Below are positions 35,974 through 58,590 of a stretch of 64,000 nucleotides of DNA, one piece after another; position 1 is the stretch's first letter, and each line of letters opens with the position of its first letter. Below the pieces are notes generated by a model. The model saw only the letters and a list, made by a program, of their open reading frames with translations. It made no database searches and was not told the origin of the DNA. The stretch is from Roseibacillus sp. GTDB lineage: Bacteria; Verrucomicrobiota; Verrucomicrobiia; Verrucomicrobiales; Akkermansiaceae. Both the position numbers and the translations under genes were made by a program. The stretch lies in contig NZAC01000011.1 of assembly GCA_002686085.1 (NCBI GenBank), positions 1 through 64,000 of the forward strand, in the 5' to 3' direction.

Positions 35974-35996
35974 CTTTAATGCTCCTCTTAAAAAAC

Positions 35997-38933: not shown

Positions 38934-38973
38934 CTCACACATCTTACTTCGCGAGGGCTGACGCTCAAGTGGC

Positions 38974-40005: not shown

Positions 40006-40059
40006 AATAAAACCGGGTGAACGTCAGAAAATAAGTAGATTTGGAATACTCTTGTTTTG

Positions 40060-42258: not shown

Positions 42259-42308
42259 TTCCTTTAAATACCTATTCGAACCATCACCTCTCAACCCGCC
42301 CGTGGAAC

Positions 42309-42935: not shown

Positions 42936-43448
42936 ATTACATCAAATCATTCTCAATTCAAGTTCATCAGCACCCGTTTCCGCTCAGTCAGTTCAAGGCG
43001 TGGGAGTGTTCTTATTGAGGCCATCATCGCCCTCTCGCTCCTACTTGTTGTCAGCCTGGTGATCCTGAAAGGAACGATGAATATTCTCGCTCCACGCCAG
43101 TGGACAATGGTGCAAAATGTATCTGATGCCTATCTTTCCTATGAGAAGGCCTTCGCACAGAGGATTCCCTTCGAAAGCCTGACAGACTCCTCCTCTCCTT
43201 GGCCAGTCTATCCGGCAAAATCGGAGGGTCCCGTGACTCTCGGCACTCTTCCAGGCGGACGAACCCTCACCGGAAACGTCATCCGAACCAGAATGCCTGA
43301 CGACAACAACCTTCCTGCTTTCGGGGGTAATGCAACAACTGCAACCAACCCAGCCGAAATGCAGACCTGGATCCTCCAAAGTCATGTCACTTACACGATA
43401 AGTGGAAGAGATTACGTCAAATCGAGAACAATAGTGCGCACCCAATGA
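42888..43448 (+). CDS. GspI/PilV-like minor pseudopilin
   Basis: Prepilin-like protein with the processing site R-R-G|SVLIEAIIALSLLLVV: Gly at -1, Ser at +1, Glu at +5, then a hydrophobic helix. Between this site and upstream there is no ATG; the nearest usual start in frame is a GTG at 42888 (186 residues, 40-residue leader, overlapping the divergent gene by 48 nt). An ATT at 42936 would give 170 residues and a normal leader length. The frame stays open to 42387, but that part lies opposite the divergent gene and is unlikely to be coding. The stop overlaps the next gene's ATG (ATGA). It is the first of three genes that match the order GspI-GspJ-GspK, the tip complex of type II pseudopili. 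Confidence 0.75.
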   Translation: MYEDSANKKPAHRESHITSNHSQFKFISTRFRSVSSRRGSVLIEAIIALSLLLVVSLVILKGTMNILAPRQWTMVQNVSDAYLSYEKAFAQRIPFESLTDSSSPWPVYPAKSEGPVTLGTLPGGRTLTGNVIRTRMPDDNNLPAFGGNATTATNPAEMQTWILQSHVTYTISGRDYVKSRTIVRTQ

Positions 43449-44002
43449 AAACCTCTGTCCCCCGCTCCGGAAACTCCCGCGTAATCAGCCGTGGTTTCAC
43501 CCTGCCCGAGCTTGCTACCGCAATCGGTCTAGCCCTTGCTATTGCGGCCATCATGATGACTCTACTGCAGCAACAGGTGACCTTCCACCGGATTATCCGA
43601 GCTCAGAAATTCCTCGTTGATGATGCCCCCCAGATCAACAATACCATCACCCAGATTCTCTCACGTGCGGATGCCTACCGTATCCACGCCAACCTTGGTG
43701 ACGCGATCGCAGGAGCCAATGCCGTCACGGATGATGGAAAGGTCCTGGTCCTCGGGTTCATGAATCCCGATGGCTCCAGAAACCTTGGTATGATTTCGTT
43801 CGAATCCGAAGGAGAGCAGGATGTTCTCGCCTATTACAACATGAATTCCAATGCCTCTATGGCGGAAGCAGGAAATCCAGACTGGCTCATCTCCCGGCAG
43901 GTGGAAGATGCCCGGTTTTTTGTCGAAAACGGGGTATTCAGGATGCGCCTCACTGGCCCAGCGGGCGAAATCATCACCTATTCCGGCACCCCTAGACTTT
44001 AA
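43445..44002 (+). CDS. GspJ/PilW-like minor pseudopilin
   Basis: Protein of 185 residues with a prepilin leader of 17 residues ending S-R-G|FTLPELATAIGLALAIAAIMM; Phe +1 and Glu +5 are as in classic type IV prepilins. The mature globular part has about 150 residues and ends LTGPAGEIITYSGTPRL. The ATG overlaps the stop of the GspI-like gene. Homologues in this position form part of the tip that starts pilus or pseudopilus assembly. A prepilin peptidase is required but is not in the window. Confidence 0.82.
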   Translation: MKTSVPRSGNSRVISRGFTLPELATAIGLALAIAAIMMTLLQQQVTFHRIIRAQKFLVDDAPQINNTITQILSRADAYRIHANLGDAIAGANAVTDDGKVLVLGFMNPDGSRNLGMISFESEGEQDVLAYYNMNSNASMAEAGNPDWLISRQVEDARFFVENGVFRMRLTGPAGEIITYSGTPRL

Positions 44003-44026
44003 ACCCGATATCACTCTCAAATCTCC

Positions 44027-45940
44027 ATGAAAAGAACTTTGCGGTCCGGCTACATATCGATCCTGGCTGTCATAACACTCGCATCAATAATGCTGCTCAT
44101 GCTAACGGCGTCGTTCCGCCATACTATTCGGAACCAAGAGGCCCAAAAGAAGACTCAGATCAGGGTCGACTACACCAATCGTGAACAAGCATTTCTCCGC
44201 GCAGTTCTCACCGAGGTCCCCAACAGCGCGATCCGCAACATGATGGCAAATTCCAATTCCGCTAGCAACGAGGTCTCCTCACGCTGGGAGTGGATCTTTG
44301 AGCGGGCGCTGGCCAAAGCCAATAGCGAACAGGCTCTACCGAGAGAACAAGCAAGGGTTCTTGGAATCGGCGGGCAATCAATTTCGGGAAATACCGGTAA
44401 TGGTAGCAGAGGCGAGCTCAGAAATACCGTCACTCGTATCAAGAACCAACCCTCCTTAAATTCGTTCTACGTGAATGCTGGCACAAATAATACCAGCGAT
44501 CTCCTGGGACGGAACTACCCCGAATCTCTGAGACTGTCGGATGGCGCTGTAGAAAAGATGGATCGTGACCGTCCAATAATCAGCATGGCAAAAACATATC
44601 CCGAGGGAAGCCAGTTCAGGGTCGTACCCTACCCTGACGTTCATTTCGGCTATGTTGCCCAATCGGACAATTTCGTAGCGAAGCGTAATTGGTGGGCTTT
44701 CTCGCTTGGGTCCGGTGAGGCTTCAAAAGCATCTACCGGCGTCACCACCGTTAGAAAGAATTTTATTCTCTCCATTTATGAGGTTCCCTCTCAGCTCGCT
44801 GTTGGAAGTGCGGGGAGTACTATTCTGGGAAAACATGGAGACGGCTCCGATTGGGGTGATATCCGGATTTCAGGTGGAGTTTTCGCCTCCCGGGCCTTGA
44901 CTCAGGGGAACGTTCGGCTGGATCGGCTGGCCGCACGCCGGGGAATTTCCCTGGCCGATGAATCATCGGTGGGAGGGGTCGCTCTGGACGCCCTCACAGG
45001 CGACCTTCTCTCCCGGGAGCAGTATGAGTCTGAGAATGCTACCTATTACCCTATCTCCAACTCTTCAGATTCCGGCCTCGTCGCCTTTCTCCCGATTGCT
45101 CGCGGCCGAGACGCCTTTGACGACCTTGAAAACGTTAGCGACAAAAATTCCGGCTCGCCGACTGGCTGGAACCACTACAGCCGCCCCGCAATACAAACCG
45201 TCATGAAGCTGAGAGTTGAGGATGTCCTCTCGCCTCAGGATCAAACCCCAACCTCCATTTCGTTTACTTTTCTCGCGGGTGGAATTGAGCGCAAAATCAT
45301 TTACGCCCGTGGCAATAATTGGCCGACCTCACGCTCACCAAAGGGGAGGCTGTTCCCCTTTCATCTTGAAAGTGATGGCATCCAACGCCAGGCCCTTGCC
45401 GTCCACGTAGGGAGATTGCCTGCCTTTCTTCGATCAATAGGAGCCGATCCCACCTCCGTGAATAATTCCCTGATGGTGAATGCGAATTATCGAGACAACA
45501 TCCGGATTCGTAAGCCCAATATTCCGTCTCTTTCGACTGATGTTGCCCTGGTGCTCCGAGACACAAGGGACTTCACCTCTTTCTCCACTGGGTTCTCGCT
45601 GGTGACACCGTTCAGAACTTATCTGGTTAATGATGTCAATATCGTCCCCCGCGGTATTGATGCACAAGGACAGGAAGTGTTTCCCCCAATTTCCCTTTTC
45701 ACCCCCGAAAAACGCTTTGGAATTCGTGACCAACCCATGAATATTACCCTGAAGGGGCAAGTGAACCACGTTGGAAAAGATAGTGATCAAAACGCGCGTC
45801 CCCTCGACCTGCGTTCCGGCGCAAATGACGAAGTCCTCGCCGGTAAGATTAAAGCTGAGCTTTACTCAATCACTGAACCCGAACAGCTTCCTCCGATTAG
45901 CCAGATGAATTGGCTTGTGGTTATCGAGCAGCTTAACTGA
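44027..45940 (+). CDS. GspK/PilX-like large minor pseudopilin-like protein
   Basis: Protein of 637 residues with a short N-terminus ending R-S-G|YISILAVITLASIMLLML, a prepilin-like site without Glu at +5. Missing Glu+5 is the known hallmark of GspK, and the protein is larger than GspI and GspJ, as is usual. The large extracytoplasmic part has no recognised catalytic domain; strands such as KNFILSIYEVPSQLAV and DVALVLRDTRDFTSFS are spread throughout. It may correspond to the large verrucomicrobial cassette proteins described with type II-like genes, but this could not be confirmed. It ends the trio and converges on the main cluster. Confidence 0.75.
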   Translation: MKRTLRSGYISILAVITLASIMLLMLTASFRHTIRNQEAQKKTQIRVDYTNREQAFLRAVLTEVPNSAIRNMMANSNSASNEVSSRWEWIFERALAKANSEQALPREQARVLGIGGQSISGNTGNGSRGELRNTVTRIKNQPSLNSFYVNAGTNNTSDLLGRNYPESLRLSDGAVEKMDRDRPIISMAKTYPEGSQFRVVPYPDVHFGYVAQSDNFVAKRNWWAFSLGSGEASKASTGVTTVRKNFILSIYEVPSQLAVGSAGSTILGKHGDGSDWGDIRISGGVFASRALTQGNVRLDRLAARRGISLADESSVGGVALDALTGDLLSREQYESENATYYPISNSSDSGLVAFLPIARGRDAFDDLENVSDKNSGSPTGWNHYSRPAIQTVMKLRVEDVLSPQDQTPTSISFTFLAGGIERKIIYARGNNWPTSRSPKGRLFPFHLESDGIQRQALAVHVGRLPAFLRSIGADPTSVNNSLMVNANYRDNIRIRKPNIPSLSTDVALVLRDTRDFTSFSTGFSLVTPFRTYLVNDVNIVPRGIDAQGQEVFPPISLFTPEKRFGIRDQPMNITLKGQVNHVGKDSDQNARPLDLRSGANDEVLAGKIKAELYSITEPEQLPPISQMNWLVVIEQLN

Positions 45941-46036: not shown

Positions 46037-46522
46037 CTACTCCTTTGGGGGAAGGAGAGGGTGGAGGCTTCCTCCGGGGCTGATCGAATTCCACAGCAGG
46101 GGCGCCTCGCTGGAGGATACCCTGAGGGGGCGAAAAGACTCGCTATGTGTATCCACGCGAAACTGGAGTTCATTCAAATCTCGGTTGGTTTCCCTTAACT
46201 GCTCCTGGAGCGACACATTGACATCACGTAATTCCAGATTCGCTGAATTGAGTTTCTGTAACTGGCCCACAATTTCCTCAAGAGCTTTGAGAGTCGCCGT
46301 GTTTTCCTCAGCAGAAGATGGCGATACCGCCGACCCATCTCGCTCATACTCCCCCGCTGTTGATATGCTCTTGTGATTTTCCAGATTCTCTTTCTGAGTC
46401 ACTGCTCGCCTTTCCCCAATCCAATCATTCTCGACAAACTGGAGGGCATGAATCAGTGCCGCGCCGGACATCACTCCCAGGAGAGCTGCAGAGGTCGCTA
46501 TCTGAAAAAAGCAAATTCTCAT
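46037..46522 (-). CDS. small membrane-anchored coiled-coil protein of unknown function
   Basis: Protein of 161 residues. An N-terminal hydrophobic segment (about 3-28) acts as signal or anchor. The middle (about 75-125) has a heptad-like pattern (TLKALEEIVGQLQKLNSANLE) that predicts a coiled coil. A Pro/Ser-rich tail ends the protein. Its ATG overlaps the stop of the upstream gene (ATGA), so it is the last gene of the long minus-strand set. A structural role in the secretion or pilus apparatus is inferred from position. Confidence 0.72.
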   Translation of the reverse strand: MRICFFQIATSAALLGVMSGAALIHALQFVENDWIGERRAVTQKENLENHKSISTAGEYERDGSAVSPSSAEENTATLKALEEIVGQLQKLNSANLELRDVNVSLQEQLRETNRDLNELQFRVDTHSESFRPLRVSSSEAPLLWNSISPGGSLHPLLPPKE

Positions 46523-47211
46523 CGTTCACCTGCATTATTTGTTCCCTTCAGCTTCTTCGAGACCAGAAATTCACCCATGACGGATGCGTGGACGTGAAGG
46601 TCTCTCGAGTCCGAACGCCCGGTTGTTCCATCCTCACTATCTAAGCTCCTGCCTTTCCGGGGGCTTCCATCTACCCTCCCCGCTTCCTTATCGCCCACTG
46701 CAGCGCTTTCTCGAACACCGGGATCAGCCTCTCCGGCTGCACGATCGGGAGATGCCACTGGTGTAAATGGACGAAACAGTGAGGGCCCATTCCGGTTGAT
46801 AATCAGGGGCCTTAGCTTGTCTCCGGAAATTTGCTCCTGATCCAGGAGCACAGGCTGGTCCTCAGATTCCCCCGGAAGCGTGGAGGCCCCTGGATCCAGT
46901 GTGTTCCGAGAGGAAATGTAGAGCTCCTTTTCAGCCTCCAATACCGGCTCCTGCCCTCGAATGACGGGATCAGGACTGAGAGGAGGAATAGGCGCCACCG
47001 GAAACAAAACCGGCTTGGTTATATACATCCAGAAAAACACTGCTGTTAGGGCAGTACTTGCAAGCATCATGGGGGGATACCATCGAGAAATACTACAGCG
47101 CTGGCATTTGCAGGGAGCCGAAGAATCGAAGGGTAAACGACTTGCCATCTGAACTTCCCTTGCTTCGTCCTCATTCCGGACGGTCATATCGCTTGGAGTT
47201 TCCTCGTTCAT
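46519..47211 (-). CDS. single-pass membrane protein of unknown function
   Basis: Protein of 230 residues, not recognised. A cytoplasmic N-terminus of about 47 residues contains the Cys cluster CKCQRC, followed by one transmembrane helix (about 48-70, MMLASTALTAVFFWMYITKPVLF) and a long Pro/Glu/Ser-rich extracytoplasmic region. The layout resembles GspC/TonB-like connectors that span the envelope, but no domain is recognisable. It overlaps the next gene by 4 nt and starts 20 nt after the exported protein gene at 47232. Confidence 0.72.
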   Translation of the reverse strand: MNEETPSDMTVRNEDEAREVQMASRLPFDSSAPCKCQRCSISRWYPPMMLASTALTAVFFWMYITKPVLFPVAPIPPLSPDPVIRGQEPVLEAEKELYISSRNTLDPGASTLPGESEDQPVLLDQEQISGDKLRPLIINRNGPSLFRPFTPVASPDRAAGEADPGVRESAAVGDKEAGRVDGSPRKGRSLDSEDGTTGRSDSRDLHVHASVMGEFLVSKKLKGTNNAGER

Positions 47212-47231
47212 TTCAGCTTCATAGACGATTG

Positions 47232-47702
47232 TTATCTTCCGCCACTAAGAGAAATTCTCCTATTGGCATAGGTGATCTCCACCACATCCGAAAAGGCGGG
47301 GAATTTGGTCAATACCAGCCTATCCTCGGTAAGGGTAAGCTGCCGGAGAACATTCCCTACCAAGGAATAGGCCTGCACTCCGGGCAGAGTTTCCATTTTC
47401 CCCGAACCAGCACCCGCTAGAATCCCATCATTACGGTGAATCGTGAAGGAGGTATAACTTTCCTTCGAGCTCTCTCCATAAACCCTGACCGAAATTCCAT
47501 CCGTGTAGACACGGCAATAAAAGGGTTTACTGGGGATGAGGAGTGAGTCCCCATCCCGGATCTTTACCCGCTTATCAAATCTGTAATTTCCGGCGAATCG
47601 AAAACCGTCTGGAAGAATATCCTGTTCCGCCAGCACCTCAGCCGTGTTCAGCAAGACTGTCACCAACAGTGCATACAGCCAGTATGTATGTAATCTCTTC
47701 AT
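47232..47702 (-). CDS. small exported beta-rich protein of unknown function
   Basis: Protein of 156 residues from the ATG at 47702, which overlaps the stop of the upstream pilin gene (ATGA). The signal peptide is about 1-24 (EVLA-E). The mature part is strand-rich (FRFAGNYRFDKRVKIRDGDSLLIPSKPFY, VEITYANRRISLSGG) with one Cys. The family was not recognised. Tight coupling to the pilin gene suggests a part in the same apparatus. Confidence 0.75.
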   Translation of the reverse strand: MKRLHTYWLYALLVTVLLNTAEVLAEQDILPDGFRFAGNYRFDKRVKIRDGDSLLIPSKPFYCRVYTDGISVRVYGESSKESYTSFTIHRNDGILAGAGSGKMETLPGVQAYSLVGNVLRQLTLTEDRLVLTKFPAFSDVVEITYANRRISLSGGR

Positions 47703-48109
47703 TCGCCTACATCCCACAAAGAATCTGTCGGGGACCCCGATGGATCATAAACCGATCCGCCTAACTCTATCAGAACAGGGGGTGACTTGGTAACATCATA
47801 GGAAAGGCTGTTCCCGTTTAGGTCTTCCACGCCGGGAAGAAGGGATCCTCCACTTGGAAGGTATTGGATTAAATCCCTTCCGGTAATTGAAGCCACTTCC
47901 TGCCTTGGGTTATCCGCCAGGTAGGACCGCTGTGCCACAAAGACCTCGCGGAGAGCTGCCGAAGCCTTCTTTCCCTTGTTCCATTCCCCAATATTTCCCG
48001 CAAAGTACATCGTTGCCCCCATGATACTGAGGATCACGAAGATCACGACGGTTAGCTCCACCAGCGTAACTCCTCGTGGCGAAAATACGTAGTGCGTATT
48101 TATTTTCAT
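47699..48109 (-). CDS. type IV prepilin-like (GspG/H-like) protein
   Basis: Protein of 136 residues with leader MKINTHYVFSPRG|VTLVELTVVIFVILSIMG: Gly -1, Val +1 and Glu +5. The mature part is short, about 123 residues, with Pro- and Gly-rich end regions. It lies in the minus-strand set after the GspF and small membrane protein genes and is one of two prepilins there. No Cys pair is present. It could be the main pseudopilin or an accessory one; abundance cannot be told from the sequence. Confidence 0.82.
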   Translation of the reverse strand: MKINTHYVFSPRGVTLVELTVVIFVILSIMGATMYFAGNIGEWNKGKKASAALREVFVAQRSYLADNPRQEVASITGRDLIQYLPSGGSLLPGVEDLNGNSLSYDVTKSPPVLIELGGSVYDPSGSPTDSLWDVGE

Positions 48110-48140
48110 GGCATCATTTTTTCGTTCGGATTGTCCGGGA

Positions 48141-48560
48141 CTACTTGCCTAATAGGGTATCAACCGACTGCATGATCTCGGTCTTCAGCTCCTCGTCGGA
48201 GTGAATCCGGTAGCCCAGCCCCAGTGCGGTTACGGCAAACCCGGCAATCACAGTCCACCAGAAGGTGCGGAAGAAAAAACTCTTTCCCCGTGGCGCGATG
48301 ATCGGTCGATACCATGGATCTGTTTCAACGATTCTCGTCACAAACATCTGGTTTCCAGATCGCAAAGCTGTCAGCAGGGATTCGAGATCCCTTTTCGCGT
48401 TTACTATCAGGCGGTAGCGGTAGCGTCGGCTGGGGGACTCCTCAAGCTCTTCAACAGTCACCTGTCCCGATAGCCCAGACTCCGGAAGCCTCATCGTATA
48501 GACATGTGTCTGATAGATGAACCTTTCGCGCAGCCAGCGATCAATTTGAGTCAGTTGCAT
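48141..48560 (-). CDS. single-pass membrane protein of unknown function
   Basis: Protein of 139 residues. A soluble N-terminal part (about 1-95; VTVEELEESPSRRYRYRLIVNAKRDLESLL) looks like a small alpha/beta domain. A single transmembrane helix lies at about 98-118 (FFFRTFWWTVIAGFAVTALGLGY), followed by a short charged tail. It lies between the GspF-like gene (12 nt gap) and the pilin gene (31 nt gap). Most likely an accessory part of the machine; no family was recognised. Confidence 0.73.
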   Translation of the reverse strand: MQLTQIDRWLRERFIYQTHVYTMRLPESGLSGQVTVEELEESPSRRYRYRLIVNAKRDLESLLTALRSGNQMFVTRIVETDPWYRPIIAPRGKSFFFRTFWWTVIAGFAVTALGLGYRIHSDEELKTEIMQSVDTLLGK

Positions 48561-48572
48561 GAATCTTCTATT

Positions 48573-49706
48573 TTAAATACCGCTCTGCATCATCTTCGGA
48601 CCCATGAGAAAGATCGGAAGAAAAGTTCCAATAAATACCGCTGCGATCAGCGAAACCGCCATCAGGAGCACCACAAAATTCAATACCTGAGTGAAGTCGT
48701 TCATATAGTTTTCCGACTCCTCCTCATACATGTCCGCCAGCATCTTCAGCTGGTTATCAATCGAAGCGGACCTCTCCCCGATCGACATCATGTGCACCAC
48801 CTGCTCATCCACTGAAGTAAATTTGCTGAAAGCAACAGAGAGAGGCACCCCGGAATGCTCATACTGTTCGGCCGCATTACGAATCTCTGGAAATAGTGGT
48901 GTAGATTTAACCGAATTCGCTGCCACTCGCATCGACTTAGAGAGATTAATCCCGTTGGAGTAGAGAAGCTCCATGGTAGAAAGAAATGTCATTTGCCTGA
49001 GGCTCATGATCAGCTGGCTGAGTAGGCGCCACTTGGACATCGCTACCGAGGTAATAGCATTACGGGTGCCTTCGGACCGCCAGATCAGAACTCCCATCAC
49101 CAGAGCGCTAACTACCGCAAAGGGCCATAGAATACGCGTTGCATGACTGACCTTGAAAGCAAGTGCTGTCAGCCCGTCTGGCGCTTGGCGAACCTGCTCC
49201 AGCATTCCCTCGACCTGAGGGACAATCTTAACCTGTGAGACTATGAAGGCACCAATCAGTACTGAAATCACGATTCCCGGAAGAAGAACCGCCTTACGAA
49301 TCTGTTTCTTAAAGTAGAGCTCTGCTTTCAAACGGTCGGCTAGCTCGCGGAAGGCACGATTCAATTGGCCAGAATCACCGCCTGCTTGGATTAAGCCGAT
49401 TGTCATGTCGTCAAACCGGTTCGTCTTACGGAACGCTTCGTGGATCGACATCCCAGACTCCGTATCAAGCCGGATCTGCTCAAGCGTAGCAGCCAAGACC
49501 TTGTTGGGCAGCCCCTGCCCATAATATTTAAGCGCATCCGAGGTGTTAATTTGAGCCTTCAACATCGAAGAAAGCCCCCTGAACAGGTGAATGAGATCCT
49601 TCTTTTTGAATCTCTGGACTTTCGTCTCCTTCTTCGCACTTACAGCGGGCCGGGATCCGGCAGGAGAAAAAGCCCCTGCGTTTGTTGTGACAGTTCCGTT
49701 ATTCAT
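48573..49706 (-). CDS. type II secretion / type IV pilus inner-membrane platform protein (GspF/PilC family)
   Basis: Integral membrane platform protein of 377 residues. It has the duplicated T2SSF domain with about three transmembrane helices: AVLLPGIVISVLIGAFIVSQ, then ILWPFAVVSALVMGVLIW and the C-terminal LNFVVLLMAVSLIAAVFIGTFLPIFLM. The motif ETESGMSIHEAFRK-like (DTESGMSIHEAFRKTNRFDDM) and its repeat-like VPLSVAFSKFTSVDEQVVHM match the family. It should anchor the cytoplasmic ATPase and drive pilin movement. Its ATG overlaps the end of the GspE/PilB gene by 8 nt. Confidence 0.9.
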   Translation of the reverse strand: MNNGTVTTNAGAFSPAGSRPAVSAKKETKVQRFKKKDLIHLFRGLSSMLKAQINTSDALKYYGQGLPNKVLAATLEQIRLDTESGMSIHEAFRKTNRFDDMTIGLIQAGGDSGQLNRAFRELADRLKAELYFKKQIRKAVLLPGIVISVLIGAFIVSQVKIVPQVEGMLEQVRQAPDGLTALAFKVSHATRILWPFAVVSALVMGVLIWRSEGTRNAITSVAMSKWRLLSQLIMSLRQMTFLSTMELLYSNGINLSKSMRVAANSVKSTPLFPEIRNAAEQYEHSGVPLSVAFSKFTSVDEQVVHMMSIGERSASIDNQLKMLADMYEEESENYMNDFTQVLNFVVLLMAVSLIAAVFIGTFLPIFLMGPKMMQSGI

Positions 49707-51393
49707 CAGAGTAGGTCATATCGATTGTTTTACTGATCGCCCTGAGATCAGTCTGCCCGTCAGCAAGAAGGCGAAGTCCACTCCGCCGGAGATTCGGAAG
49801 AGCCCCATCTTTCAAAACCATCATCTCGAGGTCGTATGGGCTGATCTCTCCCTTCGAAAGCAGGTCGGAAACCCTGGGCGTGATCGGGATAATTTCGACA
49901 ATTGCGGTCCGCCCACTGTAGCCGGTTCCACGGCACTCAGAGCACCCACCCGATCTCCCACCAAAGAGCGATCGCTCAGCCCACTCCTCTCCCAGATTGA
50001 ACAGTCGCCGTTCTTTCTCACCGATGCCCTCGATGGGTATCTTACACTCAGGACACAGGACCTTGATCAAACGCTGCGCGCATGCCGCCTTGAGGGTCTG
50101 GGCGATTTTCCAGCGCTCGATCTTCAGTTGTTCAAAACGCTCAATAATCTGGGAAGCACGAGGTGTATGAATTGTGGTCAAAACCTTATGCCCGGTGACC
50201 GCGGCCTCAATGGCTAGCTCGGCAGATTCTGTATCGCGAACCTCACCCATAAGAATGATATCCGGATCACTCCGCATGAAGCTTGTAATCATCGGTTTAA
50301 ATTCCGATGAATTTTTCAGGTCACAATGGGTTACCCCCGAGATTTCATCCTCCACCGGATTCTCCAGCGTCAGGATATTTACTTCGGGACGATTGAGCTC
50401 ACGCAACATTGCGTTCAAGGTCGTCGACTTGCCCGATCCCGTCGGACCACTCATCACAATTATCCCAGCCGGAATCTCCATTACCCGGTTGAGCTCAAAG
50501 AGAGTCTCATCGTCAAAGGCCAGAGACCCCTTCCCCAGTTTGACATTAATGTGGCTCTTATCGAGAAGCCTCATCGTGACATGGTATCCCCTGTAGGTCC
50601 GATGGCGTTCATACCGGATATCGATCGGCCGGTGGTAATAAGCGATCGTAAAGCGTCCTGATATTCCCGGTGTGGTGTTGCGCGTTTCTGCCGGCAACTT
50701 CATCAAATTCAGGAAAAACGCATCGATCCGATCCTTGAGCTTCATCGGCATCTCAACTTTGTCTCCCAGATCCCCATCAATACGGTAACAGTAGTAGAAC
50801 GACTCTTTCTCTACCTTGAAATGAATGTCAGAAGCCCTCAGCTTGGTAGCTGTGGCAAGAATGGTAGCCGCGAGTTGTGCAATCGGCTCATCATATTCAA
50901 CCGTGACATCAAAGTCCTGCAGACCCTCATCGATATCCTCAACATCGATCGACTCAAGCTGAGAACGATTCGGGCCCTGGGTCGTGGTAACCCGTTCAAT
51001 CGCACGACTGATCTCACTACTCAGCGTTACAATCTTTTCGATCTGGAGCGAAGGGAATCGTGGAGAGAGATATTCATCCGGCGCGGAGCTCCAGGGGTTA
51101 GATACCGCTACCAGAAGTCGATCCGCATGAATACAGAGGGGGGTAAACCCTCCCCGGGTCATCAAAGCGGGATCGCACGCGTCGAGTAGCGATGCATCGC
51201 AAAATTCAGCAACCTTCGGGAGGAAGGGAAGACTGTTGACCTGAGCTATAGCCGACATGAAGAGGGGCCGGGAAACTCGGTTGGGGACCTGATCATGGCC
51301 AAGTTCGGCCAGCGAAGCATCGTGCTCAATCAGCGCGGCCATGATCCGGCCACTGATAAAATCATTAAATTGGATGCCATCAAACTCGATCAT
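49699..51393 (-). CDS. GspE/PilB family assembly ATPase
   Basis: Cytoplasmic ATPase of 564 residues from the ATG at 51393, which overlaps the upstream stop (ATGA); an upstream ATG at 51426 would add 11 residues. The N-terminal region (about 1-150) looks like an MshEN/N1-type domain. The core has Walker A GPTGSGKST (about 316-324), Walker B and Asp/His boxes ILMGEVRDTESAELAIEAA and VLTTIHT. A tetra-Cys zinc motif is visible: CPEC and, downstream, CSEC. It drives pilus or pseudopilus extension. The genome also carries a PilT-like ATPase at 57328, so both extension and retraction may be served. Confidence 0.92.
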   Translation of the reverse strand: MIEFDGIQFNDFISGRIMAALIEHDASLAELGHDQVPNRVSRPLFMSAIAQVNSLPFLPKVAEFCDASLLDACDPALMTRGGFTPLCIHADRLLVAVSNPWSSAPDEYLSPRFPSLQIEKIVTLSSEISRAIERVTTTQGPNRSQLESIDVEDIDEGLQDFDVTVEYDEPIAQLAATILATATKLRASDIHFKVEKESFYYCYRIDGDLGDKVEMPMKLKDRIDAFFLNLMKLPAETRNTTPGISGRFTIAYYHRPIDIRYERHRTYRGYHVTMRLLDKSHINVKLGKGSLAFDDETLFELNRVMEIPAGIIVMSGPTGSGKSTTLNAMLRELNRPEVNILTLENPVEDEISGVTHCDLKNSSEFKPMITSFMRSDPDIILMGEVRDTESAELAIEAAVTGHKVLTTIHTPRASQIIERFEQLKIERWKIAQTLKAACAQRLIKVLCPECKIPIEGIGEKERRLFNLGEEWAERSLFGGRSGGCSECRGTGYSGRTAIVEIIPITPRVSDLLSKGEISPYDLEMMVLKDGALPNLRRSGLRLLADGQTDLRAISKTIDMTYSDE

Positions 51394-51971
51394 ATTCCGA
51401 ACTGCTGCTGGCAGAGTGAGATCCATCCCTCATGATGGAGGAGGACACTTGAAACCATGGGAGTGGTTCCGGTCTTATCTGCGATGAACTGCATTATTGT
51501 TCGTGCAGAAATCCGCAGGGCCGCCGGATTAATGGATCCTATACCAATAACTTCTGACTCTTCCGCAAAGAGCACGGGAGTCATCAACTTCCGACATTCA
51601 AGAAGAAGACTTTCGTTCATGTCATAAAACACGGACGGTGTTGGCATCTTGCTGGCAAAGGGAACCAGCGTCAAAGGCTGCCCCAGTGACTGGGACAGGG
51701 ACCTTCCGAGGCGCTCAACTTCCAATGGACGGGCGTCAGGCTCACGAATTCTCAGAGCTGCGAGGAACTCAAGAGGATCCCATGGTCTCGGACCCCGCAG
51801 TGAACCCTGCCCATGATGCCGTAGCTCTTTCAGCTCCGCTGGGGTTGCCAGTCCATGATCTTCGAGAAGCGTGCAGGTCTGGCTGAGGCATTCAGGGTCG
51901 GTTGCCATTGAGACAGTTGCGCCAGACGGCACACTGTTCACTTCAGTTTGATTTTCAGCTTGGGCCTGCAT
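51390..51971 (-). CDS. stand-alone protein resembling an assembly-ATPase N-terminal (MshEN-like) domain
   Basis: Protein of 193 residues without membrane segments. Its second half has the pattern of an ATPase N-domain (LGQPLTLVPFASKMPTPSVF, LMTPVLFAEESEVIGIGSINPAALR), which can be set beside the N-terminal part of the downstream GspE/PilB protein (PFLPKVAEFCDASLL, FTPLCIHADRLLVAVSNPW). There is no Walker A. It overlaps the GspE/PilB gene by 4 nt. Relation to MshEN domains, which bind cyclic di-GMP in some cases, is an inference from the shared shape and needs a profile search. It could regulate or dock the ATPase. Confidence 0.68.
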   Translation of the reverse strand: MQAQAENQTEVNSVPSGATVSMATDPECLSQTCTLLEDHGLATPAELKELRHHGQGSLRGPRPWDPLEFLAALRIREPDARPLEVERLGRSLSQSLGQPLTLVPFASKMPTPSVFYDMNESLLLECRKLMTPVLFAEESEVIGIGSINPAALRISARTIMQFIADKTGTTPMVSSVLLHHEGWISLCQQQFGI

Positions 51972-51976
51972 GCGTT

Positions 51977-53827
51977 CTAGCGCTTACGGAGAAATTTCAA
52001 GCGTCCATGTTGAAGTCCACTCTTCGTCTTTTTCTCGAAAGACCCACCAAGGTCTGCCTTGAGATCTTCAGCCGTAGGCTGGTGATCCCTCTGGCCGGGA
52101 TGGAGATCGTCGATTGCTCTCTGCCAGTTAGGCTCATGGGCCGGGCCCGGAAGAGCAGGCTCGATCCAGTCGTGGCCAGGCTTGAGGCTTACATGATCTC
52201 GAATCGCTCTGCTCGTGATACCATTCTCCACAGCACTCCCCGGATTGTAGGAGGTTGGTGTTACCACAAAGACAAGACTGGAAGTTTCCTTCGCAGCTTC
52301 CTTGCTCTTAAAGAAAAAATTGATACCTGGAATATCACCAAGGATCGGAACCTTGTTCCTATCCTTAGTTTTGACCTGTCCGTAAAACCCTCCCACAACG
52401 AGAGAGTGTCCATCGGGAATACGGGCGACACTCTCGATCATCGATTCCGACACTCGGGGATATCTGTTCCCGCTCTGGCCAACGATTTCATCGACAACCT
52501 GTGCAGAGCGTGGGCGCATCTGCATGCGAATTGTACCATCAGGAAGGAGCGTCGGGGTAACCGCAACCGTCACTCCTATTTCTCTTGTAGTGGAAGGGTC
52601 TCCAGTTGGGTCTTTTGAGTCGACGGAATACCTGACCTCCTCGGTCACCTGATTACTGACTTCTGTCTCACTGATTGTGGTTGTAATAATGGGAACACGG
52701 TCAATGAGTGAGATTGTCGCTTTCTCATTATCCTCGGTGATAAGCGTAGGATTGGAGGTCTGGGTAACAAGCCCCCCCTGCTGCAAGGCACGAAGAACGC
52801 CACCCATCTGAATAGGAGAGAGGACAATCGTATTATTGCTTGGTGTATCAGTACCACGAAGAACAGAACCTGACCCCAGAGTGCCCGACGCAGAAAGCGC
52901 ATTGTCGATACCGAATAGAGAATTCAGGCTCGTAATAGTCTCAAGAGGAATTCCGTTCGCACCAAGACTGGATGACCAGTTCACACCCTGCTTCTCCCCC
53001 GCGCTACTATTGACACTGAGGATTTTAACTTCAATAACGACCTGCCCTTTTGCCTTATCTACCGAGGTGAGAAGGTTCCTCGCACGCTCTACTTGGTGAG
53101 CTGTGTCCACGACGATGATCGTATTGGTCTTGGGTTCGTAGTTTGCGATGCCCGTAGGAGAAAGCATCGGCTGAATCAGACCCTTGATCTGCTCGATATC
53201 AGTCGGCCGCAGGTAGCGAAGTTGATAATGCCACTCCTCTGCAGGCAACCGATTGAGCTGCTCATTGTTCAAGGCGTAAACCGTGTTCCCCTTGGTGTAT
53301 AGGGTCAGCCCATATTGAAAGGCCAACTCCTCCATCTGCTCCAGTGGATTTCCACTGTTGAGATGACCACTCACGTTGAAATCCGGTCCGGCGATACTGA
53401 CGTTGTGAAAGTACTGTTTCTTGGCACGCTTGGCCAACATCTGAAAGATGTCGTTGATCGCAGCATCGCGAATCAGGTATTCACCATTACTTTCATCGAT
53501 CTGCCCGGCGCTGTCACCCGGAACACCGACCTCCCCGTCGCTCTCCTCAGGAGGGGGAGGAGGAGGGAGTTCCGAAAGATCCTTTCCAACCGGAGATACA
53601 GGCGCTGGCGAAGCGGCAGCTGCAATCGGCACCACCTCAGGAATTGGCTCCACCGGGTCAACAGGAGGGTCGGCCAACGCCGGAGCAGTAGGATCGAACG
53701 CAGGTGGCCCGACAACCGGAAGGGGCTGGATTGGCTCATCGGGAAACACTTGCTCGGGCACCTGTTGACCAAAAGCAACAGCAGCACTGAGCAGCAGAAG
53801 GCAGAACAAAAAATCGTGATTTTTCAT
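51977..53827 (-). CDS. outer-membrane secretin (GspD/PilQ family)
   Basis: Secretin of 616 residues from the ATG at 53827, giving a signal peptide (about 1-20, VAFG-Q). The frame continues to 53983 without a signal. A Pro-rich linker (about 22-105) precedes the N-domains (about 115-300; ISDAAINDIFQ-like and LRPTDIEQIKGLIQPML). The C-terminal secretin core has GVNWSSSLGANGIPLETIT, LLPDGTIRMQMRPRSAQVV, VGGFYGQVKTKDRNKVPILGDIPGINFFF and LVFVVTPTSY. It should form the outer-membrane gate. The long C-terminal tail (about 545-616) is basic and might bind a pilotin or partner. It lies 28 nt after the PilP/GspC-like gene. Confidence 0.92.
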   Translation of the reverse strand: MKNHDFLFCLLLLSAAVAFGQQVPEQVFPDEPIQPLPVVGPPAFDPTAPALADPPVDPVEPIPEVVPIAAAASPAPVSPVGKDLSELPPPPPPEESDGEVGVPGDSAGQIDESNGEYLIRDAAINDIFQMLAKRAKKQYFHNVSIAGPDFNVSGHLNSGNPLEQMEELAFQYGLTLYTKGNTVYALNNEQLNRLPAEEWHYQLRYLRPTDIEQIKGLIQPMLSPTGIANYEPKTNTIIVVDTAHQVERARNLLTSVDKAKGQVVIEVKILSVNSSAGEKQGVNWSSSLGANGIPLETITSLNSLFGIDNALSASGTLGSGSVLRGTDTPSNNTIVLSPIQMGGVLRALQQGGLVTQTSNPTLITEDNEKATISLIDRVPIITTTISETEVSNQVTEEVRYSVDSKDPTGDPSTTREIGVTVAVTPTLLPDGTIRMQMRPRSAQVVDEIVGQSGNRYPRVSESMIESVARIPDGHSLVVGGFYGQVKTKDRNKVPILGDIPGINFFFKSKEAAKETSSLVFVVTPTSYNPGSAVENGITSRAIRDHVSLKPGHDWIEPALPGPAHEPNWQRAIDDLHPGQRDHQPTAEDLKADLGGSFEKKTKSGLQHGRLKFLRKR

Positions 53828-53855
53828 GGAGTATTCTTGATGGATCTGGAGCTCC

Positions 53856-54443
53856 CTACGGCAATGGAGGAGGAGAATTTGATTCAATTCGCAGAGGCTC
53901 AGCCTCGCTCTTCTTTCGGAGTGTGACTCCCTGCAATCGCAGGGGCTGCCCGGCTGCGGTGACTCCTTCAGGAAGCGTATCAAGACGACGGATCGCTATC
54001 TCACCACTTTGCAGATTCCTGAATGTCACCCTTGAGGGACCAACAGCTTCGACCCTGACCGATATTTTCTCTCCATCTCGAACGATGGGAAAGACCTGCC
54101 CCAGACGGAAAAGGCGAGCACCAACAAGAAACTCCCTTTCGCGCGAGTTTATGAGAGAAATTTTGATGTCTTTGATGAAATCTCGGAATGAGGTTTTCGG
54201 AATCTCTCGTGAGGAACGGCTTATCACCGGAGCCTTCCCAGGATTCTGATACAATCCGAAAGGACCTCGCTCCCGCCCGGCAATGGAAAGCCGTCTCTTT
54301 AACTCCGCGATTCGGTCATCAACTGTATCCGACAGAAATCTTGCGGGGGTCGCACTGGCGGAATACGAGTTGGCCCCGGAAGCAGGCTCTCTGGCTACCG
54401 CCACTGCAGAGAAGAGAAGAAGTATAAGGAAGGTCGTCTTCAT
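53856..54443 (-). CDS. exported protein, PilP/GspC-like in position
   Basis: Protein of 195 residues from the ATG at 54443, which touches the upstream stop (TAATGA). An ATG at 54455 would add four residues. The signal peptide ends near VAVA-R. The mature part is basic with a small beta domain (VGARLFRLGQVFPIVRDGEKISVRVEAVGPSRVTFRN), of the kind seen in PilP and GspC HR domains that bind secretin N-domains. Its position directly before the secretin gene fits that role. The family match is by shape and context, not strong sequence signal. Confidence 0.7.
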   Translation of the reverse strand: MKTTFLILLLFSAVAVAREPASGANSYSASATPARFLSDTVDDRIAELKRRLSIAGRERGPFGLYQNPGKAPVISRSSREIPKTSFRDFIKDIKISLINSREREFLVGARLFRLGQVFPIVRDGEKISVRVEAVGPSRVTFRNLQSGEIAIRRLDTLPEGVTAAGQPLRLQGVTLRKKSEAEPLRIESNSPPPLP

Positions 54444-54979
54444 TATTTTTGCCACGTAGTGTAAACAACTGCCGCATTCAGAACATTCTGGTTCGCCGCC
54501 CTGGAGAGCTTGATACTGTCCAGCTGGAGCTGAGGCATTTTTGTTTCTAGCTCAAGAAAAGCAGTTTGGAGGGCCCTGTAAGTGCCGCGGAAGGCGAAGT
54601 GAAGTTGGATAGATGGCTGCTGACTCGCACCTCCGATTCCGCCCGCTACAGTGGTCGGCCGAAAGGCGGTCTGTTGGAAGTGGGTAGCTTCGTAGTCTTT
54701 CTGAAAGTCACGGAAAAAGGTGTTGACGGAGGTAGCTGCTGGTTGCTCGAACAGGGACATCCACCGGTGCATGTGCGGCGCCTGTGACTGCACCTTACGC
54801 TCGAGCATTCGCCGCTCCTTTTCCACAGTCTTAAAGGCCTGATGATGCTTCTTCCTGGACTCATAGGTAGTTTCCAGTTTCCCGCGGAAATGCACTCCCA
54901 GCCCCAAAGTAGCGACCACAAGAAAAACCGGCACTACCAGCCCGAAAACGATAATAGGATCTTTGTAATGAGGATTCAT
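54443..54979 (-). CDS. PilO/GspM-like inner-membrane protein
   Basis: Protein of 178 residues with one N-terminal transmembrane helix (about 9-30), a coiled-coil stretch (about 34-64, rich in Lys/Glu/Arg) and a C-terminal ferredoxin-like domain (about 105-178; SIQLHFAFRGTYRALQTAFLELETKMPQLQLDSIKLSR). This is the layout of PilO and GspM. It overlaps the PilM/N-like gene upstream by 4 nt. Akkermansia muciniphila has a PilO-like protein, Amuc_1100, in a comparable pilus-type cluster; whether this is an orthologue is unknown, and Amuc_1100 is longer. Confidence 0.78.
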   Translation of the reverse strand: MNPHYKDPIIVFGLVVPVFLVVATLGLGVHFRGKLETTYESRKKHHQAFKTVEKERRMLERKVQSQAPHMHRWMSLFEQPAATSVNTFFRDFQKDYEATHFQQTAFRPTTVAGGIGGASQQPSIQLHFAFRGTYRALQTAFLELETKMPQLQLDSIKLSRAANQNVLNAAVVYTTWQK

Positions 54980-56724
54980 TGCGCGGCAGTGATCGGGATG
55001 GCGATAGGGTCCTCAGCAGTAATACGCTGAGTGATCGTCAATCTAAAATTATGAGCGAACCGCTCTTCTGGCTTCTTTCCAATAAGCGGCTTGAATCGCT
55101 TGTTCTCAGAGGTCAGAAGATTCACCAGGAGCGTTCGGGATCCCAAATCGGTGCGAAAGGACTCATTACCGGTTTGTTCACGAATGCTCTCAAACACCTT
55201 TCCCATTCCCTCTGTCGTGCTGATCACCGTAAGGTGATTCAGAGCATCCGTGTTAGAGAATCCGCTAATCGTCCAATCTTTGACGACTCCTGCACTGGGA
55301 TCCTTATTCTGAGCCACTTCAGGCCTCACCCGGTGACTGGCTTCTGACAAGATCACACTCTCTGGATCCGGAAAAAGCTGATTAATCAGCTCCATCGAAA
55401 CCCACGCCTTAGATCGGTCAGCGAGCAAGGAACTCCATTGTTCATAACGATGGATTTCTGAGGAAAGAATCTTGTTTCCTTCCCGGGAAACTTCGCCGGT
55501 CTGATGCCAGGATTCGTCGTTAATAATCTTAATGCCGCGGACCGCGGTCCATCCAACAAATAGGAGAATAGCTGCCGCTCCAAGGCGCAGAGCAGCAGAA
55601 CCAAACCTCAGGATTCTCATTTCCGTACGGGACGGAAGTAGGTCCACTTCATCCCTTGATTCCGGAAGAAAATCCTGAGTCGCCCACCCGGATTCGATCA
55701 TACCCTGAAAAGTCTGAGCACCTCTCACAACCACTTCTTCATTCCGAGATCTCAAGCTGGAAGGCCCTTGGAACTCGAGCGGAACCGCGGAGTCAAACCA
55801 GCGATTCTTACGCCAGTCAACCACCACTGCCCCGGGAAGCTGTGGGGCAACTGGATCCCGCCCGGAGCAGGCCAGCGGAAGAGTGTAAATGGGCGGATCG
55901 GGCAATTCGAGAGCTGCCGCCATAGTCTGCACTATCCGCCCTACGTGAGACGGAGTGACCCCCTCATGGTGTCTTACTGACCTGAGCATGACGAGCTCTC
56001 GTCCCTCGGAAAAAAAGGCAATGACAGAAAAAGATGAATAGGGAAAAAAGATAGCGAAGGCTTGATCCGGCAGCTCCTCATCCAGTCGCCGCAGAGCAGC
56101 AAGGGTGACCAAAGGAGCACTCAACGCGCAGGTCCGAATAGGAAAGTTCAGAACCTGCCCAACATTTCTGATCTGTCTTAGATAGGTGTGGCATCTTCTT
56201 GAAATTGTTATCGCTGATCCAAACTGCTGCCCGGGCCTAGCACCGGGATAGGGAAACAGGCGGAACGAGAAGTCCTCCACAGAATCGCTATGATCCTCAA
56301 GGACGGCCTTGGGTTCATGCACAAGCTTCTCACTTAGAACACCAAGATCCTCGGGGCGTTCACTGGCCCCTCTGAGCTCGGATATGGCAAACTCGTCGGC
56401 AACATGGAGAATCACTGCCAGTGACTTCATTCGGCCATCAAAATGGGAGCGAATTCCTGCAAGATATTCCATTACCTCCTGCTCTCCAGCCTGTAACGAG
56501 GGCAGAGCTACGCGGGCCCAGGTCTTTCTGTCGTCCTTCCCGTAACAAATGTGTGCCGCCGAGATATCTTCTCCTTCTAAGAAAAGGTGCAATTGGCACT
56601 CAAGGTCGAGAGCCTCACGATACCAGTCAAGATTCCTCGAACGAGTAGTCTCACGGTGGAGACGCCGCGCCTGCAGGAACCGTTGCCAGGTTGTTAACTG
56701 GGCTGGATGCACCAATACTTCCAT
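54976..56724 (-). CDS. PilM-PilN-like (GspL-like) fusion protein
   Basis: Protein of 582 residues in two parts. The N-terminal ~370 residues form a cytoplasmic actin-like fold candidate (LHLFLEGEDISAAHI, AFAIFFPYSSFSVIAFFSEGRELVMLRSV). One transmembrane helix (about 379-398, LRLGAAAILLFVGWTAVRGI) leads to a periplasmic coiled coil and ferredoxin-like domain (about 410-582; DWTISGFSNTDALNHLTVIST). In type IV pili these parts are PilM and PilN; in type II secretion they are joined in GspL. Here they are joined, as in GspL. The gene starts 89 bp after the strong hairpin that follows the pilin gene and overlaps the PilO-like gene by 4 nt. Confidence 0.8.
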   Translation of the reverse strand: MEVLVHPAQLTTWQRFLQARRLHRETTRSRNLDWYREALDLECQLHLFLEGEDISAAHICYGKDDRKTWARVALPSLQAGEQEVMEYLAGIRSHFDGRMKSLAVILHVADEFAISELRGASERPEDLGVLSEKLVHEPKAVLEDHSDSVEDFSFRLFPYPGARPGQQFGSAITISRRCHTYLRQIRNVGQVLNFPIRTCALSAPLVTLAALRRLDEELPDQAFAIFFPYSSFSVIAFFSEGRELVMLRSVRHHEGVTPSHVGRIVQTMAAALELPDPPIYTLPLACSGRDPVAPQLPGAVVVDWRKNRWFDSAVPLEFQGPSSLRSRNEEVVVRGAQTFQGMIESGWATQDFLPESRDEVDLLPSRTEMRILRFGSAALRLGAAAILLFVGWTAVRGIKIINDESWHQTGEVSREGNKILSSEIHRYEQWSSLLADRSKAWVSMELINQLFPDPESVILSEASHRVRPEVAQNKDPSAGVVKDWTISGFSNTDALNHLTVISTTEGMGKVFESIREQTGNESFRTDLGSRTLLVNLLTSENKRFKPLIGKKPEERFAHNFRLTITQRITAEDPIAIPITAAQ

Positions 56725-56812
56725 TGAGGGAACGAGGGGAAGATGTCGCTATGTAATAAGCCGCCACGGTGCACTCCCCGGCAGCAAATGGTGAGGCGAA
56801 AGCCGCACCGGA

Positions 56813-56840
56813 GTCGGCGCCAGAGTATTCTGGCGCCGAC
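56813..56840 (-). terminator. strong hairpin between the pilin gene and the PilM/N-like gene
   Basis: A perfect 12-bp GC-rich stem (GTCGGCGCCAGA/TCTGGCGCCGAC) encloses a 4-nt loop. It can be extended by CCGGA/TCCGG with one bulged C. It starts 18 bp beyond the stop of the pilin gene and has no T-run. It may partly terminate transcription or protect the pilin mRNA end so that pilin is made in excess over the downstream parts. Confidence 0.7.
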
Positions 56841-56858
56841 CTCCGGGTCGAAAAGTGA

Positions 56859-57263
56859 TTACCAGTCTCCAAAATCACTTGGCACGTGCTTCTCAGCAGT
56901 TGCAAGTGAACAGGTCATATAAAGCACTCCTTGTTGCGGGAGAGTGTCACCTTTGTTGGAGTATGTTCCTGTGCCGGGGCAATCAGGGCTACTTTCAACG
57001 AATTTGCCAGGCCCAACAATCTCTCGGTATGCACCGGAAACCACTTCTCCGGCATTATGGCCATTCATGTTCTGGTAGGAGCGCATACCTTGTTGAACGT
57101 TACGAATGTTCATGATGCATCCTGCGCGATCAGAGCCTCTTTTCCAGGCGCGCGCGCCAACGAAAAGAATGCTGATCAATGATAGAAGGACGAGAATTAC
57201 GACCGTCAACTCAATGAGGGTCATCCCGGACTTCACTGTCTTCTGGGTGTTTGTCAGTGTCAT
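56859..57263 (-). CDS. type IV prepilin-like protein, probable major pilin
   Basis: Protein of 134 residues from the ATG at 57263. The leader TLTNTQKTVKSG is followed by |MTLIELTVVILVLLSLISILFV, with Gly -1 and Glu +5. The open frame reaches 57314, which would give an overlong leader. The mature part has about 121 residues, with a CIMN...CPGTGTY...MTCSLATAEKHVPSDFG pattern containing three Cys residues, some of which might pair. Its place right after the PilT-like gene and before a strong hairpin suggests high expression, as for a major pilin. This rank is inferred. Confidence 0.82.
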   Translation of the reverse strand: MTLTNTQKTVKSGMTLIELTVVILVLLSLISILFVGARAWKRGSDRAGCIMNIRNVQQGMRSYQNMNGHNAGEVVSGAYREIVGPGKFVESSPDCPGTGTYSNKGDTLPQQGVLYMTCSLATAEKHVPSDFGDW

Positions 57264-57327
57264 GGTTTTGTCTGTTTTGGTTGATGACGCGCACAGGGCA
57301 CGTGCTTTTGGCACTTGGATTTACCGG

Positions 57328-58590
57328 TCAGATTTCATCTTCATCGTTCCGATTCATCCGGGCGCTTTCAAAAGTTTGTTGGTCGATAGCACCGCGCTGC
57401 AGCAGTTTACGCAGGCTGTCGTCCCATGAAATATTGCCAGCTCGACGAATGACGTCCTCGAGTGCATTCGATCCGGAAGAGTAGTTCGCGATCGCGCTGG
57501 AGACTGCATCGTTGCTGTTCTGGAGAAACTCGTAGGTCAGCACTCTCTTGCCATTCAGTCCCCTCAAGAGGCCCTGCGAATGAATAAAGATGAGCATTTC
57601 GCTGAGCCGACTAAGTACTGACCCGAACTTCTCGTGGGGGTACATTTCAAGAATCCGCCCCATCGTCTTGACCGCACCGGTAGTGTGAAGCGTCGAGAGA
57701 ACGAGATGCCCTGTCTGAGCCGCTTCCAGGCAGGTATCCATCGCGTCACGATCACGAATCTCTCCAAGAAGTATGATATGAGGCGCTTTTCTTAGAACAT
57801 CCTTCAGTCCCTGTCGGTAGCTTGCTACGTCACGCCCAACCTCCTGCTGAGTAATGATACTGGGAGACATCGCTCGGTGATCAGGATAATTGGGATGCTC
57901 CATGTCTGCCTGGTAACGATATTCAACGGGGTCCTCGATCGTAACTATATGCTTGGAAGAAGACTGCCTCAGCCAGTCCATCAGTGAAGCCAGAGTCGTG
58001 GACTTTCCCGAACCGGTCGGACCTGTCACCAAACAGAGCCCTGCTCTCCGACGCACTGCATCCTGAAGTGCGGTTGAGGTATCAGGATCAATTCCCAGGA
58101 CATCGAGAGCTGGTATCGTATCGCTAAGGATCCGGCACGTGATTCCCAGTCCGGAAGCCGAGAGATGAGCTTGAATACGCAGACGCCCTGAAATTTTTGT
58201 CCCGCCTGCATAGACGACACCGTCTGCTGAAAAATCGTCAACATGCGTCTCTTGAAACCGCTGAAGTGATCGCTCTACTTTCTCATCAGAAGTGACTCCC
58301 ACACTACTCCCCCCAAAACCATGGCCAGACTCTTCCTGCCGAAGAACGAGAGCCTTGTAAACTTCCAGCAGATCTCGATCGGAGAGGAAGCCCAGAAAGT
58401 CTAGACACTCCATTCCATGGTTGGTCTCAACGTAAATTGGCCGCTTTGCACGGAACTGAATGTCCGACACACCGCGTCCCTCGCAAGCCTCCAGCGAGAC
58501 TGCGAGCAGTTCTTCCCCAGACATGCCCGGCTGAAAGACCCGTAGCTGCGGGGCCTCGAGATGGGCAGGAGGTTGCTCAATCGCACTCAT
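57328..58590 (-). CDS. PilT-like retraction-type ATPase
   Basis: Cytoplasmic ATPase of 420 residues without an MshEN or zinc domain. Walker A GPTGSGKST is at residues 190-198, then VTIEDPVEYRY, LLGEIRDRDAMDTCLEAAQTGHLVLSTLHTTGAVKTMGRI, all of the PilT type. The N-terminal part has VSDIQFRAKRPIYVETNHG. It is the first gene of the long minus-strand set. In type IV pili PilT retracts the fibre. Its presence supports a retractable pilus rather than a pure type II secretion system, or a hybrid. Confidence 0.9.
   Translation of the reverse strand: MSAIEQPPAHLEAPQLRVFQPGMSGEELLAVSLEACEGRGVSDIQFRAKRPIYVETNHGMECLDFLGFLSDRDLLEVYKALVLRQEESGHGFGGSSVGVTSDEKVERSLQRFQETHVDDFSADGVVYAGGTKISGRLRIQAHLSASGLGITCRILSDTIPALDVLGIDPDTSTALQDAVRRRAGLCLVTGPTGSGKSTTLASLMDWLRQSSSKHIVTIEDPVEYRYQADMEHPNYPDHRAMSPSIITQQEVGRDVASYRQGLKDVLRKAPHIILLGEIRDRDAMDTCLEAAQTGHLVLSTLHTTGAVKTMGRILEMYPHEKFGSVLSRLSEMLIFIHSQGLLRGLNGKRVLTYEFLQNSNDAVSSAIANYSSGSNALEDVIRRAGNISWDDSLRKLLQRGAIDQQTFESARMNRNDEDEI

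Follow-up and report, generated by a model that had tools for sequence, protein, structure and literature searches.

The described systems closest to the gene cluster reported here are the type II secretion system (T2SS; Gsp, Pul or Eps), the type IVa pilus (T4aP) and the MUL2 pilus of the Amuc_1098-1102 locus. The T2SS has been described as arising upon the loss of PilT (PMC10191384), and GspC is mandatory in the final T2SS model of Denise et al. 2019 (PMC6668835). Type IV filaments as a rule carry a tip complex whose cap subunit has no Glu5 (PMC10191384), and GspK and PilX likewise lack this residue (PMC7541494). In Myxococcus xanthus, three minor-pilin/PilY1 clusters serve one machine (PMC7541494). 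The MUL2 locus has been reported in aquatic Akkermansiaceae, among which Roseibacillus is a dominant marine genus, and the accessible part of that paper names no second filament system (Wilkie et al. 2026, PMC13174399). Here we describe a cluster of about 20 genes in a 64,000-nucleotide stretch (the window) of a Roseibacillus sp. genome (assembly GCA_002686085.1, contig NZAC01000011.1, positions 1 to 64,000). On balance, we favour the reading that it encodes a type IV filament machine of the T4aP/T2SS branch that is particular to its lineage, probably retracts and bears an exchangeable tip. It is apparently a second and so far undescribed filament machine besides the known Akkermansia-type pilus; a literature search, which missed most subscription journals, found no description of it.

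Conservation and distribution of the cluster

Fourteen genes form a minus-strand run at 46037-58590, and 14 of 14 are open at their coordinates. In relatives, the order pilT-pilin1-gspL-O178-P199-secretin-N193-gspE-gspF-tm139-pilin2-sp161b-sp230-sp161a is kept, mostly with one additional gene (ex245) before sp161a. This order holds in 12 whole-genome loci and, up to the contig ends, in 57 named loci. The 57 loci were found in a scan of genome contigs, and their record titles are all from Verrucomicrobiota (Roseibacillus, Luteolibacter, Haloferula, Prosthecobacter, Brevifollis and unnamed lineages). The preliminary description of this DNA regarded the genes as one unit, and their co-inheritance in a constant order agrees with it. 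The genes are also closely spaced. It also gave overlaps of 4-8 nt, which are found at several junctions: 4 nt at gspL/O178, sp230/sp161a and, with the ATG start of sp161b, pilin2/sp161b, and 8 nt at gspE/gspF. However, the overlap at N193/gspE is 37 nt, and a single gap of 134 nt follows pilin1. A promoter scan was uninformative since shuffled sequence gave more sites than the real one.

The run itself is real, but the system is larger than first described. The minor-pilin and exported-protein genes at 38286-45940 are part of the same system as the minus-strand run. Among 289 genomes, a model of the GspK-like minor pilin picked out 13, and these are precisely the 13 that have the GspL-like protein of the run. 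GspK is present in 18/18 GspL-positive genomes and in 0 of 2 tested genomes of genus g2 (same family, probably Akkermansia); these genomes are related, and the co-occurrences are not independent events.

Across the phylum, the GspL model has matches in 18 of 388 genomes; within the order Verrucomicrobiales it has them in 134 of 387, spread over 20 of 50 genera, and no listed genome of genus g2 has one. The nearest GspL is 98% identical and comes from an Akkermansiaceae metagenome-assembled genome (MAG). Because the gene order is kept across relatives and GspL occurs in 134 of the 387 genomes of the order, a chance arrangement is excluded. In the reading favoured here, the system is specific to the order Verrucomicrobiales.

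Five MAG records titled Akkermansia muciniphila (L064, L087, L096, L100 and L102) carry the system, though no g2 genome does, and their titles may be wrong. In family f2, tm139, sp161b, sp230 and sp161a were not detected, through loss or strong divergence, and pilT adjoins the minor-pilin trio gspK-mp2-mp1. Genes for an ATP-binding cassette (ABC) ATPase, an ABC-type permease and a membrane-anchored protein stand directly before pilT in relatives. The same triplet is on another contig of the window's genome (C34, L143:6250-8828), and it may resemble the PilGHI transporter of Myxococcus.

Motor ATPases

Both motor ATPases of the cluster are backed by family models. The PilT-like ATPase (420 aa; 57328..58590, minus strand, as are all genes of the run) falls in a separate clade (support 100/99) that it shares with PilT from the clusters of relatives. 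The GspE/PilB-like extension ATPase (575 aa; 49699..51426) likewise forms its own clade with the GspE proteins of relatives (support 100/100), and the branching inside the two clades agrees. The Walker A, Walker B, Asp box and His box motifs of the cluster PilT are all intact, and a clade-specific insert follows the Asp box. In the tree, the cluster GspE stands next to the PilQ of plasmid type IVb pili, but this placement unites long branches and was not used.

A PilT-like gene in such a cluster could also have been explained by a separate complete pilus system, a possibility raised in the preliminary description. A separate PilT (415 bits, cut-off 319.1) with an adjoining PilU-like gene does exist on contig C13 of the same genome. 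This pair was rejected as an explanation of the cluster PilT, which is a distinct clade and accompanies the cluster in almost every relative with an intact locus. The assignment of PilT to the cluster therefore stands.

Secretin, platform and assembly proteins

Family models also support the GspF/PilC-like platform protein (377 aa; 48573..49706) and the secretin (51977..53827, with a probable ATG start at 53827 in a frame open to 53983). Prepilin motifs are present on both pilins of the run. Pilin 1 (56859..57314, start perhaps at 57263) has Glu5 and is a candidate major pilin because it is duplicated in several relatives. Pilin 2 (136 aa; 47699..48109) is GspG-like by profile. A prepilin peptidase (Peptidase_A24, a partial match over the cut-off) is encoded on contig C10 of the same genome.

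The GspL-like protein (582 aa; 54976..56724) has no Pfam or NCBIfam match, and its assignment comes from an AlphaFold2 model built on an alignment of 36 homologues, with a predicted local distance difference test (pLDDT) score of 83.6. Residues 36-357 of the model resemble PilM of Thermus (2ych; Z 12.0 over 262 residues, root-mean-square deviation 4.2), and the model also resembles the cytoplasmic domain of EpsL (1yf5; Z 10.9). A membrane helix near residues 371-401 follows the PilM-like part. The protein is thus predicted to consist of an actin fold of the PilM/GspL type, followed by a membrane helix and one more domain; the VIA-align comparison spans only residues 40-355, and the C-terminal part is outside the fold assignment. 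The PilM-type and membrane-helix parts are joined in one protein in the window and likewise in the 36 aligned homologues, in agreement with the PilM-PilN type fusion proposed at first.

The next two genes had been called PilO-like and PilP/GspC-like. For the first, O178 (178 aa; 54443..54979), T2SSM_b matched 12 of the 22 homologues (best E 1.6e-5), and the NCBIfam GspM model gave an E value of 1.8e-5, below the cut-off. These matches are modest and consistent with a GspM/PilO-like protein. P199 (199 aa; 53856..54455) has no family match among 18 homologues and no profile match to Escherichia coli GspC; its alignment looks HR-like by eye only. The protein encoded after the secretin, N193 (193 aa; 51390..51971), had been called N-domain-like. 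Its identity as a GspE N-domain is not supported, as no MshEN match occurs in 20 homologues and no profile match to the cluster GspE was obtained, and N193 is a conserved protein of no recognised family.

Four further conserved proteins of the run belong to no recognised family. These are tm139 (48141..48560), with a weakly hydrophobic segment near residues 95-120, the exported sp161b (47232..47717, ATG start at 47702), sp230 (46519..47211) and the N-terminally anchored sp161a (46037..46522), which has a coiled-coil-like stretch. In a profile comparison with E. coli T2SS proteins and the genome's own Amuc proteins, which used single-sequence references throughout and is a weak test, no match was obtained for O178, P199, tm139, sp161a, sp161b, sp230, up311, up343, up256 or ex286.

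Comparison with the T2SS, the T4aP and the MUL2 pilus

The cluster has the ATPase, platform, pilin and secretin of the generic type IV filament definition of Denise et al. 2019 (PMC6668835), and the genome provides the prepilin peptidase. The mixture of T2SS and pilus features noted earlier, with several parts of no known family, is borne out by family models and profile searches. The curated NCBIfam models place the core proteins in neither class. The T2SS equivalogs score below their cut-offs (GspD 132.7/351.35, GspE 286.8/630.25 and GspF 138.4/424 bits, each against the cut-off), and so do those of the T4aP (PilB 300.1/675.65, PilT family 234.1/319.1 and PilQ 133.5/284.35 bits). Because of these scores and of one defining feature each, the presence of PilT and the fusion of PilM and PilN, the cluster is assigned neither to the T2SS nor to the T4aP.

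The cluster shares with the T2SS a GspD/E/F-like core, the GspL-type fusion fold, a GspM-like protein and, apparently, I-J-K-like minor pilins with a K subunit lacking Glu5. It differs from the T2SS, which has no PilT-type ATPase, in the PilT-like gene found here and in nearly all intact relatives, and it has no recognisable GspC. Its GspK-like protein is about twice the usual size, and several family-less proteins and the ABC triplet are associated with it. With the T4aP it shares extension and retraction ATPases (the latter with intact catalytic motifs), secretin, platform, pilins, the PilM-like fold and duplicated minor-pilin clusters as in M. xanthus. In contrast to the separate pilM and pilN genes of the T4aP, the corresponding parts are fused in one protein, and no PilY1 was found.

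In the predicted GspL-like protein, a cytoplasmic fold like that of PilM is followed by a membrane helix and a periplasmic part, as in a T2SS GspL, and this joining was initially taken as a type II feature. It is not diagnostic here. The genome's own Amuc_1101 homologue is built alike, with a PilM domain, a membrane helix and then some 225 residues, so that the fusion alone is no sign of a T2SS.

The Amuc_1098-1102 region, proposed at first as a possible relative, was rejected as an identity for the cluster. That locus is on contig C27 of the same genome, where the homologues of Amuc_1101, 1100, 1099 and 1098 pass all four NCBIfam cut-offs. Against the Amuc_1098 model (cut-off 750), the cluster secretin scores 53 bits vs 1080 bits for the C27 secretin. 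Moreover, the cluster GspL, O178 and P199 have no profile similarity to Amuc_1101, 1100 and 1099. The MUL2 pilus shares with the cluster the bacterial family, the fusion of PilM with a membrane helix and a secretin. With both systems on different contigs of one genome, a cluster secretin outside the Amuc_1098 family and no such profile similarity, a diverged copy of that pilus can practically be discounted as the identity of the cluster. The cluster further differs in having its own GspE, GspF and PilT and in being absent from the listed genomes of genus g2.

Two more secretin genes were seen in this genome. One (L031:4473-6989, contig C37) belongs to the Amuc_1098 family (875 bits, over the cut-off) and lies apart from C27. 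The other, a fourth secretin (L029:176-2803, contig C7), is nearest to GspD (234 bits, below the cut-off) and has no T2SS neighbours in the 12 kb examined.

Minor pilins and the putative tip cassette

The GspIJK-like trio named in the preliminary description exists and belongs to the system, but it lies on the plus strand at about 42888-45940, beside the minus-strand run. It consists of the GspI-like mp1 (42888..43448, start uncertain), the GspJ-like mp2 (43445..44002) and the GspK-like protein (637 aa; 44027..45940). Prepilin motifs are seen in the trio, and the GspK-like protein lacks Glu5 (SGYISIL). It has no profile match to E. coli GspK, and mp1 has a weak ComGE match (E 0.0026, below the cut-off). 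The "Verru_Chthon cassette" family was rejected for the trio, as the GspK-like protein had no NCBIfam match up to E = 1 and no paper under that name was among the five listed.

The trio forms a cassette with three minus-strand genes, for the exported up311 (40060..40995) and up343 (38974..40005) and for up256 (38286..39056, start uncertain), none of a recognised family. Genes for the exported proteins up286 (41398..42258, plus strand), which recurs at the cassette edge, and up208 (42309..42935, minus strand), which recurs in the relatives' cassette, are often included. A sulfatase-like gene lies near the cassette at 35979-37547 of the window, in line with a marine polysaccharide degrader.

The cassette is linked to the machine in the window and in L144 and lies elsewhere in the genome in other relatives. 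Some genomes hold 2-5 GspK genes or cassettes. One genome (G379; L145, L157-L160) has five separate GspK cassettes that are 36-50% mutually identical. In the tandem cassettes of another genome (G320), the aligned parts of mp1 and of mp2 are about 99-100% identical between the two cassettes, and the GspK pair is 100% identical over columns 1-50 and 37-80% identical in later blocks. The GspK pair of a third genome (G278) shows a like trend, less sharp, with 67% in the first block. The G320 pattern fits one docking end with several bodies, which may be alike at one end through conversion or recent duplication. The presence of several tip cassettes per machine and a Glu5-less cap subunit is similar to the M. 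xanthus clusters 1-3 (PMC7541494), which differ in having PilY1; here the exported proteins are unrelated to it and their role at the tip is putative.

Proposed mechanism and alternatives

In the filament machine that we favour, the GspE-like ATPase and GspF platform would polymerise pilin 1 and/or pilin 2 through the secretin, with the GspL-like fusion, the GspM/PilO-like protein and probably a PilP-like protein holding ATPase and platform. The cluster's own PilT-like ATPase would depolymerise the filament. A complex of the GspI-like, GspJ-like and large Glu5-less GspK-like proteins may prime and cap it, the exported proteins encoded beside the minor pilins would probably join this tip complex, and the tip cassette could be duplicated and exchanged. 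The most likely use would be to bind a particle, polymer or cell at the cell surface and then to pull.

Several points weigh against this proposal. The C-terminal AIRNLIRE region, a motif tied to PilT retraction, is not conserved in the cluster PilT. For P199, the PilP-like label follows from gene position. The model of the GspK-like protein, from an alignment of 8 sequences (pLDDT 47.6), is too poor to read, the exported cassette proteins have no family match, and neither PilY1 nor a known adhesin domain was found. T2SS pseudopili have the same I-J-K cap (PMC10191384).

This last point leads to the main alternative, a T2SS-like secretion system, which we consider unlikely on balance, though a serious contender. 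A short pseudopilus would push folded periplasmic proteins, perhaps up311, up343 and up256 or the organism's many enzymes, through the secretin, and the PilT-like ATPase would reset the piston. The GspL-type fusion, the GspM-like protein, the trio with its Glu5-less K subunit and the GspG-like profile of pilin 2 agree with secretion, as do the exported proteins of the cassette, given that the T2SS tip contacts substrates (PMC7541494). However, PilT is no part of the described T2SS, whose origin has been linked to its loss (PMC10191384), the GspD, E and F cut-offs are missed, GspC is not recognisable, and a pilus locus of the same genome has the same type of fusion. A filament for DNA uptake is improbable. 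Retractile filaments with a secretin do serve competence, and the weak ComGE match of mp1 points the same way, but the loci examined in relatives showed no com genes, a DNA receptor would give no reason to expect tip diversification, and the system is confined to one order. Slightly less probable still is an ordinary T4aP for twitching with its standard parts hidden by sequence drift. Both ATPases, secretin, platform and pilins would suit it; yet better-scoring PilB (595.5 and 579 bits), PilC and PilT genes lie on other contigs (PilB/PilC-like genes on C37 and C3), the cluster ATPases form their own clades, PilM and PilN are fused, and the ABC triplet and family-less proteins are conserved with the cluster.

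Going beyond the favoured retractile filament, the cluster might represent a distinct type IV filament class beside T4aP and T2SS, which kept PilT and joined PilM and PilN. It would act in Verrucomicrobiales like a line that captures particles or polymers such as sulfated glycans, with interchangeable GspK tip cassettes setting the ligand and retraction bringing it to the secretin and periplasm. We regard this extended proposal as doubtful. Glycan capture is a natural guess from the uptake of fucoidan by marine Akkermansiaceae (PMC13174399).

Implications

Verrucomicrobiales are widespread particle-attached degraders, and Wilkie et al. explain this attachment by the MUL2 pilus alone (PMC13174399). 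If the proposed filament machine is correct, these cells possess a further filament system driven by motors of its own, and genus g2 lacks it. The system can be approached in cultured relatives whose records carry it, such as Roseibacillus persicicus, Haloferula rosea, Luteolibacter marinus or Brevifollis gellanilyticus. The duplicated GspK cassettes, with a constant docking end and a variable body, would give a direct handle on tip specificity, and the retraction ATPase and PilM-PilN fusion together would bear on how the T2SS and pili parted.

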